DNA from: Aspidiotus rigidus
Taxonomy: Eukaryota > Arthropoda > Insecta > Hemiptera > Diaspididae
Length of the DNA stretch: 64,000 nt
Direction of reading: 5' to 3'
Assembly (NCBI GenBank): GCA_035079385.1
Contig: JAVHKY010000001.1
Coordinates: forward strand, 11,804,501 to 11,868,500
This document shows, piece by piece, positions 660-59,069 of the stretch; position 1 is the first letter of the stretch; the number at the start of each line of letters is the position of its first letter. Below the pieces are notes generated by a model. It saw only the letters and a list, made by a program, of their open reading frames with translations, ran no database searches and had not been told where the DNA came from. The position numbers were made by a program, and so were the translations under genes.

Positions 660-2690
660 TAGAATCTTATTGCCTCATCCTTTGCAAGGCGAAGCCTGAA
701 GCTTTCATCGATTGAAATGATGGACATTTACTCGGCCCTAGCAATTTGCAAGAACCGCTCATGCCCTCCAGTTTACTTTTTCGAGTATTGTGGAGCTTTT
801 CTTCAAGTATTATTTATATTTTTACCGTAGAAACATTTCTCATAACACACAGTCCATTCCAACATAAGTATATAGGAACATGTACGCTACTGTCACTCAT
901 AGAAATTAGGCAGCTACGACAATCTGGAATAACGGTAGTTTCCGATAGAATGTTCGTCATATGAACATCGATGTATAGGATAGAATTATCAAGGAATTAC
1001 AAATGAACTGCTTAGTGGCCTCCACAACCTAAAGCAGATGGATAACATCGTGAAACACTTTACAGCACTTTCAAACGATACATTTTTCCAGCCGTCATCA
1101 GCCTTATCACTTTCCATTTCAAACGAACACGTAAACCAAGTAATATACAAACTTTTTTGTGACTACCATTATCTACAAGGAAACATTACCAAAACAAGAT
1201 ACTACCATACATATCATAAGCATGTACCTACAATTTTTCGAAATTTCAACGCAACGTTAATCCATTATACCACTAGCGGGAATAATTGTTTATCAGCCCG
1301 AAATGAAGCCGTCTTTGCATCATCTGTCATTCGACCTTTAGCTGTCTACCGATAAAGCAAACAAATCATGACTTCGCCTAATCACTTCGCGTGCACGAAT
1401 ATTATGTTACCGATGATGTACTTCAATGTGTCACAGATATAGCTTCGGTTTTTATCGCAGAAACGGAAATTAGTAAGCTCGTCTCTCTGCTGACTGACTG
1501 TAAGGGCAATCCGTCACTCGGTTATAGAAGGGTATTGTTTCATATAATATCCTAGACTGTTTTCGCGTACGACTGCACTCGACAATTATACTGTATCTAG
1601 GTACTGTACTTTCGCTGGCGGCAATTGACGACCGGACATTTCCGGTTCATTCTGTATGAGAGCATTATAAGATTGAAGAGGGAGAACGAGAATATCACAG
1701 TACCAATTCCGACTCACTCCTCATTATGATACAGGCGACAAAGATAGCGTTATAGTATTCGTTCATAATAATTATTACTGTAAAAACCTGACCTACAGAA
1801 GGTTTAATAGCCGACCTGCGACTCGGCGTCCAGACAATTTCAATCGACATGCACAATATTCTTAAGTGTATACTGTGTCCAACTGTTTGGAATATCTTTG
1901 ATGATGGCTACACATGTTGGTCAAAACTTTAAGAGAACTATTAGCTCGATGTATATAAAATTGTGGTCTGAACGGTAGGTAAGTAGATAATGATATAGAT
2001 TACCGATGAAAGAGAATATCTTTTTATTGCGCGCAACTGTTAACGAGAAAAATATTTTCTTCGGTCAATGAATTTAAGCAGGCAGGGTGGTAATTTCAAT
2101 TAGCCAGCGTAATATTGAACGCGATAACATGATATTAAAGGAAAGAATGACGCTCTCTCAAATCGTGTTCTTTGGGAGAGTGAAATGGCTATCTGGAGTC
2201 GACTTTGAATAGTAATCTATACAGTAGGAGAGTTATATATAATATTCTTTCACCTCCGTAATTATATTATACAATATAAGTTGAAAGGTATGAAGGAATC
2301 CTATTCCTATCTCCGATGCGTAATTACGTAATGAATCCTCTTATACGGCTTCTACCCTCTCGATTCACAAACATAGCTCCGGGGGGATAGAGAGTTGAGC
2401 CTCTCTATCTTCTGACCAATTTAATCGCACTCGCGGAGACACAAATTCTATTACAATTGCATGTTCGAGGTTGATATATTTTTATGGAAGACGTGAATAG
2501 TTTATCCTCTTACAAGCAGCTTCACGGCTAAGATCATGGCTTTTGTAAGAGAACCCTCTAAACGTCCTGCTTCTCGACAGTTCTGAGATCCAAACTTCGC
2601 TTCCTTCTGAAAAGCAGCCAGTCTAAAACTATACACGTTTTTAAAATCCCAGAATACTCTGTTTCTCCCCTTGGGAACGCACGTTAAGCC
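660..2690. other. Non-coding stretch, nothing recognised
   Basis: About 2 kb of AT-leaning unique-looking DNA. The longest open frame, 1038-1355 on the plus strand (105 codons), is rich in Asn, Tyr, His and Ser and shows no domain I recognise. I see no convincing promoter, RNA gene or repeat. Confidence 0.5.
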
Positions 2691-2743
2691 TGCAAAAATA
2701 ACCCAAATCGTCTTGTTATCTAGCCTAGACAGTTGCGTACGCA

Positions 2744-2866
2744 AGGGGGGGGGAGTCAACCCCCCCCCCCCCCAAAAAAAAAAAAGCCTTGTGACCCCAG
2801 AATTAAAAATCAAAGGATACGACAGCATCACATCACATCATTTTTCGACTACCCCCCCCCCCCCTC
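2744..2866. repeat. Homopolymer-rich tract (G, C and A runs)
   Basis: A run of about 9 G, then about 14 C followed by about 12 A, and a further run of about 14 C near 2853. Similar C or G runs occur inside the 331-bp repeat (near 147 and 475), at 12517, 15032 and 40767. The tract lies just left of the hAT insertion and may belong to the repeat the hAT invaded. Confidence 0.7.
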
Positions 2867-2902
2867 TCAGAAAAATTCCTGTGTACGCCACTGAGCCTAG
2901 AC

Positions 2903-4568
2903 CAGGGTTTCTCAACCTGTGCCGGAAGCCCGCCTCAGGTGTGCCGCAAAAGTTTTATCAAAAACATGAATTAACAGCATGAACTAAAAAAAAGAATTGC
3001 CATATTTTTTTTTTATAATTTGACAAAAATGTTATTATTTTAATCAAATGAATTAAAAATATTTTATTAATATAAATAAATATTTTCCAATTAAATAATT
3101 TTCTAAAACAAAAATAATTTCAATTCTTAGTGAAAAGTAATATTTTGAAATTTAATTTATTAATTTGAATAAGGAAATAAATTTAAATAATTAAATCGTT
3201 AGTTATATCTTTAAGGATAAGAGGATGATTAAATAAAATATTTTTAATTTGTTACCTCGATGTTGAATTAATAAAATTATATTAAAAGAATTTATATAAT
3301 TTAGTCTGTAGTTCTACTGAATTGATTAGAGATGTAATCTATTTTAATATTAATTGAGGGCAATGTTCATGAATGAATTACATGTAGGTTTAAATGGAAT
3401 ACCCCGACGATACATTATTTTCTCTTGATTTTATTATACTGTATTTTGAAATAATTTATCAACAAAAAATTATAAAATAAAAATATTGTTTTGATAATTA
3501 TAGACAAAAATTTCTCATTTAAAAAATACAATATCAAATTAATTAAATGAATTTTTAATAATAATTGATATTTGAAATTATTTAAAAATTAAAAATAAAG
3601 CTAATAGTTTGTTATTAAACTCATAATTTAAAAATCAAACTTTTCAAAAGCTATTAAAAATCAAATTTCAAATTTAAAAATTAATATTCTGTATACATAA
3701 TCTGAAAATTATAAAAGTTATACTTGAAGAAATAAGATGATTAGACTTATTAATGATATAACAAAAATTCAATTTAAATGTAATTAAATAGAAATTTTTA
3801 CTAAAAAATAAATTAAAATATTTATTTCAATAACATAAATAAAATGAATTGTGTATTTTGTATTTAATTAATATAAATGAAATTTATAATTTATTCATTA
3901 ATAATGATTTTAATTTTTATCATAATCAAAATACTATCATTTTTTTTAAATATTAATTAATTTTTTTTAAATCATCTTTCAATACTTTTTTTATCAATAT
4001 TGATATTTTTGTTTTTTTTTTTTTAAAATTCAAATTAATTATTTCAATAATGAAATCACTCGGAAAAGTAATCATAAGCACTATCTGACCGATGTGTTCC
4101 AATTCTTGAATGATGTCAGTTCCAGTCATGATTACTTAAACTTGAGTCAAAACCTTCACTCACTGCCATGAAAATCAAGAATATTCTGCAACTTGGTCAA
4201 AAATACAGATTATGTCTTATGTTTCCTCATAAATTTCGGAATTAGAACAGCCCAAAGGGTTTCCAGTAAATGCAGGAAATATTCAGACACTTTTGCGTAT
4301 TTTGGCGGCAAAATTTTTTTGAGTCCCGGTGGGAGATCAAAGCTCTTGTTTTCCGGAACCGTAGTATAGAGAAAGAAGGGTGAGGCCTCATATAGCCATC
4401 TTGAAGGCCACAAATTCTGAAATCAGGAGGAGGAAGTCAATAGAGACCTAAAAATGTCAAAACGCACAAAAATTTTCGATACAATTTGGAGTTCTGGAAA
4501 TGCTGTGCCGCAGTGATATCGTCTCATGGAAAAATATGGCGCGATATAAGAAAGGTTGAGAAACACTG
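2903..4568. mobile_element. Non-autonomous hAT transposon with perfect 8-bp TSD
   Basis: The left end reads CAGGGTTTCTCAACCT and the right end, reverse-complemented, reads CAGTGTTTCTCAACCT, so the terminal inverted repeats match at 15 of 16 positions. The element is flanked by identical 8-bp copies of GCCTAGAC (2895-2902 and 4569-4576). The termini and 8-bp duplication are the hallmark of the hAT superfamily. TGTGCCGCA occurs near both ends in direct orientation. The interior from about 2985 to 4060 is extremely A+T rich, and the right quarter is of ordinary composition. No transposase frame is visible; the longest frame inside is 67 codons at 4210-4413 on the minus strand and is unrecognised. 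At 1666 bp it is long for a MITE, so it is probably a deletion derivative or a composite that needs a transposase supplied from elsewhere. The exact duplication suggests a fairly recent insertion. Confidence 0.9.
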
Positions 4569-7936: not shown

Positions 7937-9180
7937 GTTTTCCAATTGTACAAATCTACTTTATTAGTTGCTTGTAGGTTAGATTACAGGAATTTCTCTA
8001 GGCGAGATTCTAAGAAGACTTGGGTTTGCCAAAAGAAGTAACCTATTTTATACTCGAGCGCGATGCGTCTCTGTGGAGGAGGACTTTGGCCACCGGTAAT
8101 CAGATGATTCTCCTACGTGTCCTTTTCTCCAAGCTCTCTCATGCTCGACCACTCTGATCGGGAATCCTATGTTGGCGACCGCCGCTGCAGTCTTTACATT
8201 CCACCCATTACACCCCACTCTTCCCAAAAAACAGAACAGGGTCCTCTAACTTGACGAACAATTCCTTTACAGTGATAGGATTATAGAGCGCTGAACAAAA
8301 GCCAAAGAAGCGAAAGACAAGGCTCAGCTGAAGGGAAAACTTCCCCAGAAACGTTAGTCTGATGCAGCGCGTCTTCAATTCGCGAAGGAGGAATCGCGAC
8401 GTTCTCTCGTGAATTTCCTACGTACCATGAGATCGATGTCCAAATTGATCTTATTCACTCTGGCCAAATGTTTTATGGGCATCAATTCTTTGTGGAAAGC
8501 GGACTGACACAACGGGATATGAGTCAGTTGGTGTGTGGAGCTATTAAACGTAGCAATCTTGCAGATAACAAGACAAAATGACGACCTGTGGATTACAATA
8601 TCGGTTCTGTTGATTCAAAGCTCATAGACACGAGTCTGACTTCCATAGTACATTTCATGGAACGATATTGTACATTCAGATACATAAAAAATTCGTTAAG
8701 GAGATCTTGAGGACCAGACCACGTACACAGAACGTCGTCTACATACCTGTGCTGATGGTAAACGTGACTCAACAACACTTGGTCCAAGGAGAATAGATCA
8801 AGTTCAGATTTGGACATGAATACCTCCACAGTAAGGGAATTTAGAGGGGAACCTTGGAGACTCTGAAAATATATATTTAGATTTGCGAAAATTCGGGGGC
8901 CAGCAAAAAAGCGGTTCAAAAAAGTCATGAGCAGACGTTGGATGTTGGATAGCCAGCGGAAGGTCGAATTCGGTGTAGGAGATTGATAACTTTAGGCTTA
9001 CTCTCAGCCAAGGAAGCCGAATTCTTCATAGAGTAGAGAAACTCAAACTTGACACGGGTTTCAAACCAGCGAGCAAGGGAGTTGATGAGTGAAGGGGCGC
9101 ATCGGAATGCCTTGTTTGCGCACCGTAGGCGATTCGTTTCGAAGTAGGTACGGGCTTAGGCTCAAATAGGACTTCAAATG
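7937..9180 (-). pseudogene. Penelope-like element (family B): RT and GIY-YIG remnant
   Basis: Read on the minus strand, the order is that of a Penelope-like element: reverse transcriptase, connector, GIY-YIG endonuclease, 3' untranslated end. The 111-codon frame 8928-8593 holds QGSPLNSL at residues 25-32 and the catalytic RYVDDVLCTW with YVDD at 62-65. Upstream (about 9170-8940) a frame reads SLINSLARWFETRV and LYSMKNSASLAE, typical of the region before the first catalytic Asp. About 8540-8385 reads HIPLCQSAFHKELMPIKHL and INLDIDLMVRRK, typical of the post-RT connector. About 8320-8100 reads VKELFVKLEDP, then SGV, ECKDCS and EHERAWRKGH, as expected around GIY-YIG, but it is broken by stops and frameshifts. 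The low-coordinate end has the sequence TTGTACAAATCTACTTTATT also found at the end of family A. It is 5'-truncated and inactive. Confidence 0.8.
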
Positions 9181-12809: not shown

Positions 12810-14326
12810 GGGTTTTTCAATTGTACAAATCTACTTTATTAGTTGCTTATACAAGAGCACTTTCGCGTGTTATCCCATCAGTAGTTGTGTCGCAACTAGA
12901 GAACAAGGCCTTAACCATGAGTTTTTATAGTATAACACTGTGTTCTTATTGGCTGAAACATACTGCTTTGTGATTGGTTCAATCTATTGTTCTAAATGCT
13001 GCGTTTCTATCGGCTACCTGGATCCTGCCGTCTCATTGGTTGGTTTCGTTCTTCTTCTCTCGTCCAATCACCAGGCCGAATAATTTTTCGCTGTCAAATG
13101 TGATTACATTGTTCAAGAGGCAGGCTTTCTTCCTCTTGGCTTTTGCAATCTCCATTTGTTCCCAGAGTTTTCTTCTCTTTGTGCGATTCTCTACGTGTAT
13201 GACTTCAAATGTGCCCTCTCCATCGTGGTTTTCCTCGTTACAGTGTTTCCCAAACAGTGACTTGCCATCTTCTTTCTCCCTCGACGTTTTGTGCTCCTTT
13301 CTCCTGATCTCAAACTTTCTCCCAGTCTCACCGATATAGATCCCCTCTCACTGTTCACAACGGAGCTTGTACACTCCGCTCAAGCTTTCCTTGTCCTTTT
13401 GTTCCGTCTGGTCATTGCTAATTCTCTTCACCATGGGTTGGTTATTCTGGATACCCACATTCACATCATAGCCAATGAACGACTTTATCACCTTGTTTGT
13501 GTACTTTCCTATATATGGTATCGATCCGGAGTACTTTCTCACTATGCTATCATGGGTTCCTTTCTTTGTTTCCATTTTTCCAAAGACTCCCTCCACCACA
13601 CATCTGCGGTAGCCATTGGCTTCTGCGATCTGCTTTACTATCTCGATCTCTTTCCTCTTCTCTTCGTTGTTCTTGAGGGTAGAAATTGCCCGATAGTAGT
13701 AGTTTTAGATTGCCGCTAACTTGTGGCTGGGGTGGTGGTAGGAGTCATTTGGGATGATGGTGTCAGTATGCGTCGGCTTCCTGTAGATTTTGTATTCTAT
13801 CCTATTGTTCTCCATTGTGAGTGTAAGGTCCAAATAGCTGATGATCTCATTGCCTTTTTCCACTGTGAATTTGATGCTCTCGTTCATCGCGTTCATTCCT
13901 GAGAGGAATAGATCCACCTGTCTATCAGTGCCTGACCACACAATTAGGATATCATCTACATATCTGGCCCAGTGTTTGATCGAGTTTCTGAACCTGCTGC
14001 CCTTCAATATCTTGTTTTCCATATCATTCATGAATATCTCCGCCAGTATTGGTGACAGTGGTGATCCCATCGCAAGTCTCCTTTCCTGACTGTAGAACCT
14101 GTTATTGAAGCGGCAGTAATTCTGGCTCAAGATCTCCTCCACTATGTTGGCGTACTTCGACCCATCGGGGTTCCCATGGTATCTGTTGTTTTTGAGCAGA
14201 GTGAGAATTTCCTCCTTCGGTATGGTACCAAACATATTAGTCACATCAAAGGATATCAGCTTGTCGTTACTCCTGATTTCCAACCTGTCCAGTTGCTCAA
14301 TCAGGAGACATCCAAAAGAAAAAATC
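12810..14326 (-). pseudogene. Penelope-like element (family A, copy 1): RT and GIY-YIG
   Basis: Minus-strand frame 14430-13705 encodes an RT palm. It has SFDVTNMF with the first catalytic Asp at residue 62, AMGSPLSPILAEIFM near 120-134, RYVDDILIVW with YVDD at 157-160, and YRKPTHTD at 216-223, all characteristic of Penelope-like elements. The same frame continues past a stop at 13705-13707 through CVVEGVFGKMETKKGT to the endonuclease segment SGVYKLRCEQ, a second stop at 13348-13350, and then EGIYIGETGRKFEIR. The GIY-YIG module is therefore cut by one nonsense codon between its GVY and YIG motifs. After it come KRRKLWEQMEIAKAKRKKA and LLNNVITFDSEKLFG, then a stop and about 200 bp of untranslated end with several ATTGG motifs. 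The first ~35 residues of the 241-codon frame are not PLE: they are read from the hAT-like repeat that begins at 14327. Two in-frame stops and loss of the N-terminal half make it inactive. Confidence 0.88.
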
Positions 14327-14770
14327 CAGAGAATTGCTGCCAGCTGGAAACCAAAACCCGAATTTTTACTGTTGAGAATGAAGGAGAAGGAGAAAGGTAG
14401 CTTCGTAAGCCAACAGCCGAAACAAGTCAATTTTTTTTAACCTTTTTAGCTTTCAGAACCACATTAAAACTCAAACAAAATAACAAAGATAAGTAAGATG
14501 GTTCCGGTTCAGTTCAGCTGTTCAGCCGTTTAGCATAGAAGCCTGTGTAGTGCGATCATCCAATGGATATTAACACAAACTGGAGAATGGTATCTTCTAC
14601 AGACGGCTCGAGGCTCCAATTCTCCTGATCGTTTCATCGTGACTTATATATTCTATAACATTGATCAGCCGAAAATCAGCAGAATTTTTCCGAAAGCCGA
14701 AGACCAAATGCGAAATTTTTCTAATTCGTAAGTTCCGGCCGGAGCTGAAATATTCGGCTGCAATGCTCTG
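14327..14770. mobile_element. hAT-like non-autonomous element, copy 1 (mate at 59221)
   Basis: The left end reads CAGAGAATTGCTGCCAGCTG and the right end, reverse-complemented, reads CAGAGCATTGCAGCCGAATA, so the outer ends match imperfectly. The interior aligns with the reverse complement of 59221-59783, including TTCAGTTCAGCTGTTCA, ACACAAACTGGAGAAT and CTGATCGTTTCATC. GCCGAAAGCCGAAG lies near one end in both copies. The CAG-type ends suggest hAT, but I found no clean TSD in either copy. It cuts off PLE A copy 1 on its 5' side and supplies the first codons of that open frame. Confidence 0.65.
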
Positions 14771-23739: not shown

Positions 23740-24400
23740 TTCTCGATCCTCTGCTACGACCACATTCAGGACAGATTATCGGGATCCCGTTCGCGTCCGT
23801 TGTTATGCTGGGCTGCATTTCTCTGTTTGACGCGGTCTCTGTATATCTCCTTCCAGTTCCCGTGAATAACGGCATTTTTCAGGGATGCGTGCAGCATATC
23901 TTTGTAGCGCTTTGTTTGTCCGCCCGATGTTCTCCAGCACAGCCTGATCTCCCCGTGTAAGACAGAATGTGCACTGTCCACTTCGGGGTGGTGGTTCCTG
24001 GCCAGGATTCGCTCGATTGGGTCACACTTGTTTAGTTCCAGTACTCGAGTGTTGGAGAAAGTCCTGCCATTTGATCCGCAGAATGCTTCTGAGCTGCCTT
24101 TGTTGGAATTTTCTGAGGTTTTGACGTGTTTTTTGTGTAGGGTCCAGCGTTCGTTTCCATGCAGAAGAGTAGGTAGTGGTTTCACTTCTCAGATCCCTGC
24201 AGACCAGCAACTTTCCGCCTCAACGACATTGATTGTAGGGCTAGAAATCGACGGCGCATCGTATCTTTTGATCACTGCCTTGGTTTTCATGCTATTCACC
24301 TCCATTCCAAAGTCCTGGATAGGTTTTCGCAAATACTTCGACTATCCTCTGTGTTTCGCCCGCCGAGTAGTCCAGAAGTATAATACAGGCTAAGGGGTAG
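23740..24400 (-). pseudogene. RTE-like LINE: C-terminal end of RT, frameshifted
   Basis: Reading the minus strand and changing frame twice gives the characteristic C-terminal series of RTE-like non-LTR retrotransposon RTs: ETQRIVEVFAKTYPG, then a frameshift to MEVNSMKTKAVI, then LHGNERWTLHKKHVKT, then LRKFQQRQLRSILRIKWQDF (the C-terminal LRxIL.I.WQD signature), NTRVLELN..PIERIL, LHGE, GGQTKRYKDMLHASLKNA and NWKEIYRDR. These cover the end of the palm and the thumb. The catalytic motifs upstream are missing because the frame runs into MULE-derived sequence near 24500. It is a 5'-truncated, dead copy. Confidence 0.75.
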
Positions 24401-24499
24401 AACTCCGCAATTCTGAAATCTGCAAGTTTGACGTTATCAGCTGCATGACTCTGACGTCTAGTATGAGGGAGACATATTAGATGTAGTATAGTGGGGACT

Positions 24500-24867
24500 A
24501 TTGGGAGGCTTTCGAGTGGAATAAATGATCCCGAGAGAAGAGACCGAGATGAAATGCACGACACCTGCGGGTAGATCTTCTGGCATGCATTGATGATACC
24601 TTTTTCGAAGTCCGTCATTAGCTTCCGGGGCTCGCAATTATTCAGTCTGTATCCTTCCACAGCATCCTTGACAGCAGTTAAAACGGCTTCATATTGGTCC
24701 TGTGTCTTCCGGGATAGTAGTGCGTACGCAAGAGGCACTGGAACTCCTTCGCTTGGGTCTTGGCCTGTCCTCTTCTGCAGCCCTAGCACCGTAAAAAGCT
24801 GGGTAAATATGGTAGGACTCACTGAAAAGGTGCCGTCAAGGAACCACGTACGGCTTTTGCATAACAC
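24500..24867 (-). pseudogene. MULE transposase domain remnant
   Basis: The first ~105 residues of the minus-strand frame 24867-24292 read like the catalytic domain of a Mutator-like transposase. WFLDGTF has the first acidic residue at 11, then come FTQLFTVLGL and PLAYALLSRKTQDQYEAV, and MTDFEKGIINA has the second acidic residue at 86. The next expected block (the Gly/Cys-rich G.fFH segment) is absent; the frame instead passes into unrelated and then LINE-derived sequence. It is therefore a catalytic-domain fragment, not an active gene. A CCCGAA-rich terminal array lies directly behind its start at 24900-25065, as expected for the end of a MULE. Confidence 0.72.
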
Positions 24868-24899
24868 TTCAATATTTTTTTGAGTGGCAAAGACTATAA

Positions 24900-25065
24900 T
24901 TATTCAATTCAAAGACATAAGTATTCGAGTAAATAAGTTTGCGGGAAATCATTATTCGGGAATTTATTTTTCGGGTAAATAGTATTCGGGTAAACGTCCA
25001 TTCGGGAATTTCTTTATTCGGGAAAATGGCTTTCGGGATTACGGATTCGGGAAAATGTCCGGGAA
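24900..25065. repeat. CCCGAA-repeat array, probable MULE terminus
   Basis: About ten irregular copies of TTCGGG(A/T)AA(A/T) spaced 12-20 bp in the same orientation, ending AATGTCCGGGAATC. Short direct repeats of this kind fill the termini of some Mutator-like elements, and the array abuts a MULE transposase relic transcribed away from it. I cannot find the opposite inverted terminus in the window. Confidence 0.6.
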
Positions 25066-41766: not shown

Positions 41767-42065
41767 CCACTCTTCCTTTTCGCAGGCCCTTTTTGGCAAT
41801 CAAGGCTCTTGATGGAGTCTAACCTTCAGGCCCATTTGGAGCTTTCTTTCGATCTTCAGGAAGCTTTTCACGCTGCACCTGTCAAGTGTTGGGCGGAAAA
41901 AAAAAAATCTTCACCCGGAATGCTGCCTTGGGGCCTATGCTGACTTGTCAGTAACCGAAGCATTCCATTGTCTTCTTTCCTGTTTCTTCTTCCTCTATCA
42001 GGTTTACTTACTTATAGTTGAATGAATTAAATGTGGATTGCACATTGTTCTGCATGTTGACAGAA

Positions 42066-42190
42066 TTGACACGGTCCGAAACCTTACGGCTCGACATAAT
42101 GACAGAATACTCAAAGAGTAGAGTAAACGAGAAACTAATTACAAAGACCGCAGATATAAAGGAGAAGATACGAGATCTTTCGGTTAACAA
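42066..42190. mobile_element. Insertion related to the end of the fold-back element
   Basis: About 125 bp replace six bases of arm 1. The stretch from 42071 (ACGGTCCGAAACC, TTACGGCTCGACATAAT, GAATACTCAAAGAGTA) aligns without gaps to 52861-52910 (CCGGTCCCGAAGG, TTACGGCTCGACATAAT, AAATACTCAATGAGTA), and a weaker match continues to AAGACCG. It therefore represents the end of the family to which the fold-back at 52853 belongs. There is no coding capacity. Confidence 0.65.
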
Positions 42191-42439
42191 ACCGTGTGCA
42201 CTATATGGGAATGTGTGCACTACTTATATGGCGGTGATTTGTTCTCTTCAATGGATTCTGAGTGTTTTGATTTTGTGTGCACAACTTGTATCAAGACGTG
42301 TTCACTACTTACTTCGTTTTTATCCGTGTAATACATTTCATAGGCGTGTCAATTTTGTTTCCTTGGCTGTTATCGATAGGCGGGCAAGTTCGTTTTTTGA
42401 GGCGTGCGATTAAATGTATGCCCTTTTTAATTACTTTTA

Positions 42440-52838: not shown

Positions 52839-53119
52839 TTATCTAGGAAGTCAATTTTATCCGGTCCCGAAGGTTACGGCTCGACATAATTCAAAAATAC
52901 TCAATGAGTAAAATTGCGAAGACCGGAGTAATTAAACAGTCGCGAAATACAATTCCAAATTAGAACTTGAATGGACATTTCAAAAGTAATTCTATTCCGC
53001 CATTTCATTTCATGGTGATGATAATTTCGCTAAAATATTTTTCAATTTCTTTAACGCTGTCATGTTTTTAAGGAGCGTCGATAAAATTTACAGTAGGTAA
53101 TCCTTCATCTGCAAAACGT

Positions 53120-53461
53120 TCAACCACTTCTTATTGCCCGAGCTCTTGCAGAACAGGTACCATTTTCTACGTGTTGCTGTGGCTGAGCAACCTTTTGTTG
53201 CTGAACTTGTTGGTGTTGCTGCTCACTTAGTTGCCGTTGTTTAATAAACGCATCCATTAAGCGAGGATTATTTCGCGGTATTTGCAATACTTGGTCTTGC
53301 TGCTCTGGCGCGGGTGGTAACAATAGAGCGTGCGTGAGCTGCTGTAACGCTATTCCATGTTGTCTCTGCCTCAAATGCTCATCCTGAGTATCAGAGGTTG
53401 GCTGGTATGCTGAGCTTAAACTGGAATTGTGCTGTAGTTTCCGATATTTGATGGACAACAA
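53120..53461 (-). pseudogene. CBP/p300 (nejire-like) NCBD fragment, left arm
   Basis: A 113-codon frame on the minus strand. Residues 38-76 start IALQQLTHALL, continue APEQQDQVLQI and end LMDAFIKQRQ. This follows the pattern of the NCBD (nuclear coactivator binding domain) near the C-terminus of CBP/p300: ALQ.L...L..P.(S/P)P.QQ.QVL.I...NP.LMAAFIKQR. It is followed by a Gln-rich stretch, also as in CBP. Upstream residues (YQPTSDTQDEHLRQRQHG) I cannot place. The full CBP protein has over two thousand residues, so only a small piece is present, with no promoter or start context. A captured or retroposed gene fragment is the simplest reading. Confidence 0.65.
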
Positions 53462-53790
53462 GCGCCATTACCCACCTCCTCAAGTGGTGGCGTTACCAAA
53501 GATACCGGAAACTACAGCACAAATTCCCAGTTCTAGTTTAAGCTCAGAGTACCAGCCAACCTCTGATATTCAGGATGAGCATTTGAGGCAGAGACAACAT
53601 GGCTTCGTTAAAGCAGCTCACGCACGCTCTATTGTTAAGTATCGCAAATACTGCGAAATAATCCTCGCTTAATGGCTGCATTTATTAAACAACGGCAGCT
53701 AATCGAGCACCAACGACAACAAGTTCAGCAACAACAGCAACCACAGCAACAACAGCCGTAGCAAATGGTCCCAGTTCTGCAAGAGCTCGG
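53430..53790 (+). pseudogene. CBP/p300 (nejire-like) NCBD fragment, right arm
   Basis: This reads outward from the fold-back centre on the plus strand. It starts in frame 53427-53672 with PPPQVVALPKIPETTAQIP and DEHLRQRQHG, the same as the left arm. A deletion of about 30 bp within the PPAPEQQ region shifts the frame. In the shifted frame 53645-53698 reads QILRNNPRLMAAFIKQRQ, which is even closer to the CBP/p300 consensus LMAAFIKQR than the left arm (LMDAFIKQR). It is followed by VQQQQQPQQQQP and a TAG. So the captured fragment originally encoded LMAAFIKQR and the left arm mutated later. It is not functional as a protein gene. Confidence 0.68.
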
Positions 53791-54063
53791 GCAATAAGAA
53801 GTGATTGAACGTCGTTTTGCAGATGAAGAATTACCAACTGTAAATTTTATCGACGCTCTTTAAGAATATGACACCGTTAAAGAAATTGAAAAATATTTTA
53901 GCGTGTAAATTTATAAATTATTATCACCATGAAATAAAATGGCGGAATAGAATTATAGAGATTAATTTTGAAATATCCTTGGATATATTCTTTTCGCGAC
54001 TGTTTAATTACTGCGGTGTTTGCAATTTTACTCATTGAGTATTTTTCAATTATCTAGGAAGTC

Positions 54064-57899: not shown

Positions 57900-59069
57900 G
57901 GGGTTAGGGTGTTTCATCGAAAGATTTTTCACCTAAAAAAATTCACCTACAGATAATTCACCTGATAGAAGTAGTGGTTCACCACATGGTAAGTTCACCG
58001 TGACGAAAGTTCACCGACAAAATTCGATTATATATTTTTATTGAAGAAGTTAATTAATCAGTTTATATTCAAGTTTAATAATAATAAAAAATTAATTCAA
58101 TAATTTTATTTTTGATATTTTATTTAATAAAATTAAATTTTGTATCATTTTTCATATTTTTAAGTATTATTTATTTTTATATTTTAATCAAATTTAATTT
58201 TGAAAAAAATAATAAAATAATTTAATATCTAATACACGCTTTTCTATAAATAATAATAAAAAATTAATTAAGTAATTTTATTTTTGGTATTTTATTTAAT
58301 AAAATTAAATTTTGTATCATTTTCTATATTTTCAAGTATTATTTATTTTTATATTTTAATCAAATTTAATTTTGAAAAAAATAATAGAATAATTTAATAT
58401 CTAATACACGCTTTTCTATAAATAATAATAAAACATTAATTCAGTAATTTTATTTTTGATATTTTATTTAATAAAATTGAATTTTGTATCATTTTTTATA
58501 TTTTTAAGTATCATTTATTTTTATACCTTAAATTAAATTTAATTTAAAAAAAAAATAATAATAAAATAATTTCATATCTAATACACGCTTTTCTATACAA
58601 AATTACGGCTCATCATGACAAATTTAAATTTTATTTGATTACAAATCGCCTGTGATTTGTAATTTTCAAATAATTATTTATTGAAATAAAAATCATTTAT
58701 TAAAATTTTAAAACAATATTTCAAATAAATAAATTGATTTATTAAATTAAAAATTTATAGTTATAAATAATAAAGTATAATATTTATTAATTTAATTTAA
58801 TGGATTTAATTTATAAATATAATAAATTTCCTTGATTAAACTATTATTTATTTAAATAATTATAAATAAAGTTTGGTATATCAAAGCATCAAATAAAAGT
58901 CGAACAGCTGATTGAAAAAGGTGAATTTTGTCGTCGGTGAACTCAGGAAGATGAACTTTCCTGACGGTGAAAAAAAAAACTGACAGGTGAATTTTCTTGT
59001 CGATGATGTGTGCATTCCTTCAAAAAGACTTACTCGGTGAAAAATCTTTCGGTGAACTGGTCGGATCCC
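57900..59069. mobile_element. MULE-type non-autonomous transposon with 9-bp TSD
   Basis: TGTTGAAAA flanks both sides (57891-57899 and 59070-59078). The left end begins GGGGTTAGGGTGTTTCATCG and then AAAGATTTTTCACC. The right end, reverse-complemented, begins GGGATCCGACCAGTTCACCG and then AAAGATTTTTCACC. G-rich ends, a 9-bp TSD and subterminal short direct repeats are the profile of Mutator-like elements. TTCACC or its complement GGTGAA is iterated at irregular 12-20-bp spacing within about 130 bp of each end. The core (58040-58880) is extremely A+T rich and includes a tandem repeat. At 1170 bp with no transposase, it is non-autonomous. Confidence 0.85.
58065..58610. repeat. AT-rich tandem repeat, three units of ~172-177 bp
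   Basis: The phrase CTAATACACGCTTTTCTATA recurs at about 58229, 58401 and 58578. Each is preceded by AATAATTTAATAT-like sequence and TTTTATTTTTGATATTTTAT about 100 bp upstream. The array lies inside the MULE-type element; the units are very similar, so the expansion is probably recent. Confidence 0.85.

Follow-up and report, generated by a model that had tools for sequence, protein, structure and literature searches.

Spliced CBP exons in both arms of a palindrome attributed to a Penelope-like element in Aspidiotus rigidus

We found that a palindrome in the 64-kb stretch of the Aspidiotus rigidus genome analysed here (the window) carries a cDNA piece of CBP in each of its two inverted arms and ends in sequence of a Penelope-like element (PLE) family of the same genome. 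The palindrome was almost certainly made by a PLE, and the best explanation overall is probably that a PLE inserted it by reverse-transcribing a chimeric sense RNA from a primer end at the target site.

Layout of the palindrome and family of its ends

The insertion is bounded by exact 14-bp direct repeats of TTATCTAGGAAGTC at 52839-52852 and 54050-54063, in agreement with the target-site duplication (TSD) described in the first-pass annotation. The left copy lies flush with the tail end, like that of other family copies, and TTATCTAGGAAGTC has two occurrences in the 64-kb window (starting at 52839 and 54050) and none on the opposite strand. The left arm, on the minus strand, consists of a PLE 'tail' at 52853-52887, which holds ORF codons 1-11 (MSSRNLRDRIK) and is present at this end only, a pLTR piece at 52888-52946, which lies immediately upstream of the PLE start codon and was recognized from its letters and from 86-96% identity to family copies over the 94-bp end, a spacer between pLTR and CBP homology at 52947-53028, which is partly common to the other arm, and a CBP cDNA piece at 53029-53450 comprising exon A, exon B with the NCBD, and 3′ sequence shared with a decayed, partial copy of CBP on C3. 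The right arm, on the plus strand, has a CBP cDNA piece at 53448-53916 with a 5′ end that is 54 bases longer and a frame containing stops and a 26-bp deletion, a spacer between CBP homology and pLTR at 53917-53992 in which the longest A run is 4, and an inverted pLTR piece without tail at 53993-54049, which joins the captured sequence at TTCGCGACTG, as in the left arm.

Alignment of 52886-53447 with 53502-54053 showed 475 of 513 aligned bases to be identical, with 12 gaps of 1-26 bp, so that the inverted arms of ~560 bp reported earlier stand, and the arms were identical at 466/540 positions in a four-way MAFFT alignment that included the spacers. The many differences between the arms (38 of 513 positions) argue against a fold-back assembly artefact, as far as the assembled letters can tell. 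The 54-base centre at 53448-53501 is CBP exon sequence too and extends the right arm. Pfam Creb_binding was matched in the left-arm minus-strand frame 53120-53467 (E 1.5e-11) and in the right-arm plus-strand frame 53639-53761 (E 5.2e-7), and the closest PDB structures to the left-arm frame were NCBDs of CBP (E 5.1e-8); the plus-strand frame 53388-53672 had no Pfam match. A CBP-like frame had been claimed for each arm, and an NCBD match was indeed present in both, but a long open frame is retained in the left arm only, with no methionine ahead of its NCBD core, the right-arm frame being broken by stops and the 26-bp deletion relative to the left arm.

Whole-genome searches (441 Mb, 102 contigs, window included) returned at least 83 matches to the full element (40/74 candidates scored), comprising the element itself and its other arm, CBP-like sequence on C3 and C2, and many outer ends, and at least 43 matches to the outer 94 bp alone (40/72 candidates scored). 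A genome search for the arms, recommended with the first-pass annotation, placed the captured piece 53640-53990 at four sites only, namely itself, the other arm, C3 and C2 (4/4 candidates scored), with the C3 match stopping at query position 277 of 351. At a threshold of E 1e-3, the left-arm protein matched both arms and C2; C3 is missing from this protein search because the locus is too decayed.

All 32 other end-sequence loci among the matches listed for the full element were fetched as the family set, and the 94-bp end in the window is 83-96% identical to genomic family copies. Read from the tail end, these copies open, in reverse complement, with a start codon and roughly twelve codons (MSSRNLRDRIN...), which a pLTR piece follows, while their opposite end is an inverted pLTR piece without the tail; the tail codons of the window recur in L012, L013, L016 and L026. 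Matches to RVT_1 were obtained in L012 (E 1e-6) and L013 (E 0.026), and PLE body sequence is present in further family copies. In the related element L037 (C15:743500-748500), an intact 876-aa ORF opening MSSRNVSDRVN is flanked by pLTRs on both sides and contains an RVT_1 match (E 1.6e-6) that, at 28.4 bits, falls just below the Pfam cut-off of 29.6. GIY-YIG (PF01541) had no Pfam match in this ORF at E 0.01, and CNGVYIGETGRQLG was read by eye as a GIY-YIG motif; PF01541 is carried by 2/22 homologues, and no database name among the homologues calls these proteins Penelope. The reverse transcriptase (RT) pieces of L011 gave nothing useful in Pfam, and other RT searches yielded a sub-threshold RT match in NCBIfam only and a best E of 0.14 in PDB. 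The identity of the RT as Penelope-like depends in part on motifs that we take to be typical of PLEs. Assignment of the family to PLEs rests on the RT, on these motifs and on the pLTR/tail architecture, which is described in PMC3846280 and PMC11167929.

The first-pass annotation had interpreted the insertion as a fold-back element in its own right, an interpretation we set aside because the ends are those of the PLE family. A fold-back DNA transposon was likewise rejected, as the long arms occur at one place only and the ends are PLE ends, and so was a LINE processed pseudogene: the captured sequence is spliced and flanked by a TSD, yet poly-A is absent (53917-53992 has runs of 4 A at the longest) and its outer ends are PLE pLTRs. 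No Rfam match to a hammerhead ribozyme was found in 12 loci, the L016 end or the window, but the hammerhead is optional in PLEs, so its absence does not exclude membership; a CTGATGA...GAAA string occurs in family copies, but outside the pLTR piece retained in the window. A ribozyme-cleaved RNA end was rejected as the source of the junction, given the lack of an Rfam match and the position of the junction away from the expected cleavage position in our own alignment. No second captured gene was recognized among the 32 other family loci; in L041, L044, L053 and L054 the pLTR is followed by non-PLE sequence, and the far end is not clear. One family RT fragment had 10,993 first-look candidates in the genome (150 scored), indicating that PLEs are very common in this genome. 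Several PLE copies keep long open frames, L037 with its 876 aa among them.

The tail pattern was matched in 24 of 33 loci (the 32 and the window). Among these 24 tail-bearing copies, a direct repeat of at least 9 bp shared by the tail flank and the 2 kb that follow was detected in 16, the window included, and one of at least 12 bp in 12, compared with 73 and 6, respectively, of 480 control offsets. TSD lengths in the family are 9-15 bp, and with its 14 bp the window element is an ordinary family member in this respect. The tail was at one end only in 16/16 copies with both ends known (L011-L014, L021-L028, L045, L050, L051 and the window), which had been picked for a left-side tail. Two of these copies, L027 and L028, fold at a palindrome within the pLTR and resemble small self-primed hairpins. 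Two others, L021 (C32:14800-17500) and L023 (C77:81100-83800), are short PLE insertions with identical flanks on two contigs, and probably represent one insertion in duplicated sequence.

Origin of the captured CBP sequence

The C3 locus has an intron of ~1.6 kb with donor AGGAG/GTGAG and acceptor TGTAG/ACAACAT (GT-AG). Both arms follow C3 through exon A, skip the intron and continue with exon B, reading AGAG/ACAACAT, and the exon join GAGGCAGAG/ACAACATGG is identical in the two arms (53364/53363 on the left, 53593/53594 on the right). An intron missing from the fragment, which the first-pass annotation had suggested looking for, is therefore found at a related genomic locus, and there is little doubt that the captured RNA was spliced.

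The working CBP gene, nejire (C2), has its HAT domain at C2:6738758-6739510 and shares the donor position with C3, but its coding sequence continues upstream of the acceptor position. C3 carries a decayed partial duplicate of the 3′ part of nejire that has kept the intron and is 72% identical to nejire over 2648-3417 of the nejire stretch, intron included. In the four-way alignment, 78 of 416 columns unite both arms and C3 against nejire, while 42 are private to C3, 14 are shared by the two arms only, and the left and right arms have 15 and 13 of their own; the remaining columns are mixed. At two positions where nejire has a CAG/CAA glutamine codon, C3 and the arms have TAG/TAA, and the arms and C3 share 3′ sequence past the point where nejire homology stops. 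The 78 columns, the two stop codons and the common 3′ sequence indicate that the arms came from a C3-type transcript, and the source was very likely the C3 duplicate or a closely related sequence, which displaces nejire itself, the parent assumed in the first-pass annotation. The arms are only ~73-76% identical to C3, so the direct source was not found. A second diverged CBP-like locus, L065 (C5:5347000-5356900), carries HAT_KAT11 matches (E 6e-20 and 5e-9) and ~50% amino-acid matches along the nejire order, with no NCBD match and no PLE ends.

In the left arm, the CBP sequence and the PLE start codons are read on one strand, with CBP upstream. Together with the TTCGCGACTG junction at which both arms enter the pLTR from the captured sequence, this shared orientation makes one chimeric sense RNA the simplest template. 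No PLE was present in the fetched C3 stretch, hence no read-through source is visible there; the RNA may have arisen by read-through, from an insertion since lost, or by a polymerase jump.

Copying mechanism and competing explanations

The proposed mechanism would begin with a transcript of the C3 duplicate, or of a lost sister, that after splicing read on into a PLE pLTR and ORF start, or became joined to them, giving a template in the order CBP exon A, exon B, 3′ sequence, a spacer of ~75-80 nt, pLTR and PLE start. The PLE protein would initiate reverse transcription near its own ORF start, so that host exons lying upstream would be copied. According to PMC11167929, a purified PLE protein begins copying at two internal sites of the RNA close to the ORF start, with the tail as the interval between them, and the protein cuts and elongates each of the two target strands. 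In the palindrome, the two strands at a staggered cut of 14 bp would then be extended on such RNA, with the left strand begun at the outer site, leaving a tail, and the right strand at the inner site, leaving none; both products would run through the pLTR into CBP and be joined at exon A, the right product being 54 bases longer (53448-53501). We favor this copying from both sides of the cut with modest confidence.

Several observations run contrary to the model, among them the lack of a PLE in the fetched C3 stretch, the identity of only ~73-76% between arms and C3, the missing hammerhead match, and the limited domain evidence for L037 described above. The tail was one-ended in all 16 of the copies selected for a left-side tail, a pattern that a symmetric two-sided model leaves unexplained; PMC11167929 saw no strand difference in start site. 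The ~75-80 bp between CBP homology and pLTR match nothing beyond chance: the spacers beside the pLTRs had no match to a PLE copy, and chance-level matches only (E 0.034 or worse) in the fetched loci. The hairpins of L027 and L028 fit self-priming better.

Self-priming is the strongest alternative, though on balance we consider it unlikely. On this view a PLE cDNA, or the antisense RNA suggested in PMC3846280, would have folded back and served as its own template, making the second arm a copy of the first. The identical pLTR/captured-sequence junction in both arms would be expected from such copying, family copies like L027 and L028 end in small hairpins, and PLE palindromes are read in this way in PMC3846280. 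If a first strand attached to the target had been copied, however, the tail should recur at both ends, whereas it is confined to one. The 54 additional bases would be expected on the tail-bearing arm but lie in the tail-less one. The tail on one arm and the 54 extra bases on the other thus argue for two separate starts of reverse transcription and against a single strand that copied itself, which is testable in the published in vitro system. In PMC3846280, the choice between a sense and an antisense PLE template and the origin of the inverted ends were left open, with the authors leaning to an antisense template, which would keep introns; the palindrome lacks the intron, and its exons are joined as sense GT-AG splicing would leave them. 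The captured exons therefore serve as a direction marker: a GT-AG intron was removed in the sense of the PLE ORF, so that they document, in nature, a template that was both spliced and sense.

A two-step origin, in which an older PLE copy received an ordinary spliced CBP retrocopy and was later made palindromic through gene conversion or an inverted duplication, is improbable. In native PLE copies the pLTR ends are inverted from the outset, such that only the inside would need doubling, and 14/416 columns record changes on the branch common to both arms, before they separated. Against these points, the CBP/pLTR junction is identical in both arms and no PLE body remains, a poly-A tract is absent, and the CBP piece is found nowhere beyond the arms, C3 and C2.

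Selection as a hairpin-RNA locus with siRNAs acting on CBP genes is very improbable, as the arms differ mutually at 38 of 513 positions and their longest exact match is 19 nt to the 9.9-kb nejire stretch and 19 nt to the 9.9-kb C3 stretch, despite a hairpin predicted to be very stable, at -768.5 kcal/mol for 1225 nt with a longest uninterrupted helix of 54 bp. Nothing here supports a putative siRNA role against parental CBP, and any coding or regulatory role of the palindrome is putative. We see the palindrome as a decaying by-product of retrotransposition, in which the right-arm frame is broken.

Returning to the chimeric sense RNA, the mechanism may extend to PLEs in general, such that a start at their own start codon would lead to spliced sense host exons upstream in a chimeric transcript being copied, and extension of both cut strands on the RNA would insert the host piece as a head-to-head palindrome. 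We advance this 'upstream transduction' tentatively and regard it as rather doubtful. If true, a single mechanism would account for both captured host genes and inverted pLTRs, and genomes would be supplied with ready-made hairpins of their own genes.

Related systems and other features of the window

The palindrome resembles in structure short head-to-head pLTR copies in the same genome (L021-L026, L045, L050), which likewise have tail and pLTR at one end, an inverted pLTR at the other and direct repeats of 9-15 bp, but consist of pLTR sequence only, without captured host exons. Capture of host sequence between pLTRs is described for Penelope of Adineta vaga (Pen3a_Av, Pen1_Av) in PMC3846280, and the two cases share a host gene between pLTRs (there NRPS), one inverted pLTR, a short TSD and an optional tail, of 31 bp in Adineta vaga. 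The NRPS gene has kept its introns and lies once between direct pLTRs with an 8-bp TSD, whereas in the window two exons are spliced, each arm contains the host piece and the TSD measures 14 bp. Host capture between pLTRs is thus known from PMC3846280, while the spliced exon pair in both arms is new: searches of the open PubMed Central literature brought up no earlier description of a PLE with spliced host exons in its two arms.

The tail at the ORF start and an internal start in the RNA also link the palindrome to the Anolis Poseidon PLE PAc, for which nicking and extension of both target strands were observed in vitro (PMC11167929). The main start site of PAc lies 111-118 nt into the ORF, whereas the ends in the window lie ~2 nt ahead of the ORF start and 35 nt past it, and the main-text section on PAc reports no palindromic full product. 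As an inverted repeat of gene-derived sequence, the palindrome is similar to hpRNA loci of Drosophila, which yield siRNAs against genes in genomic conflict, as described in PMC10317233 and PMC10292708; in the palindrome, complementarity to nejire is short (19 nt). The palindrome represents a route by which a retroelement turns a gene fragment into a hairpin-forming locus, and its value lies chiefly in being evidence on the PLE copying mechanism.

Other traces of mobile elements occur in the window on the minus strand. An RT remnant from a different PLE family at 13705-14436 matched RVT_1 (E 1.3e-12), with 39% identity over 120 aa to the piece in L013, and diverged PLE body sequence at 8180-8853 is 66-72% identical to copies of the L037/L012 type. 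A short pLTR and tail fragment at 42062-42193 is 95% identical to the intact PLE of the L037 type, with no flush direct repeat found, and a frame at 24292-24903 encodes a MULE transposase domain (PF10551, E 4.8e-10). A search of the window for tRNAs returned none. An AT-rich unit of 172 bp is present at 58077-58597 in three tandem copies with 92% matches.
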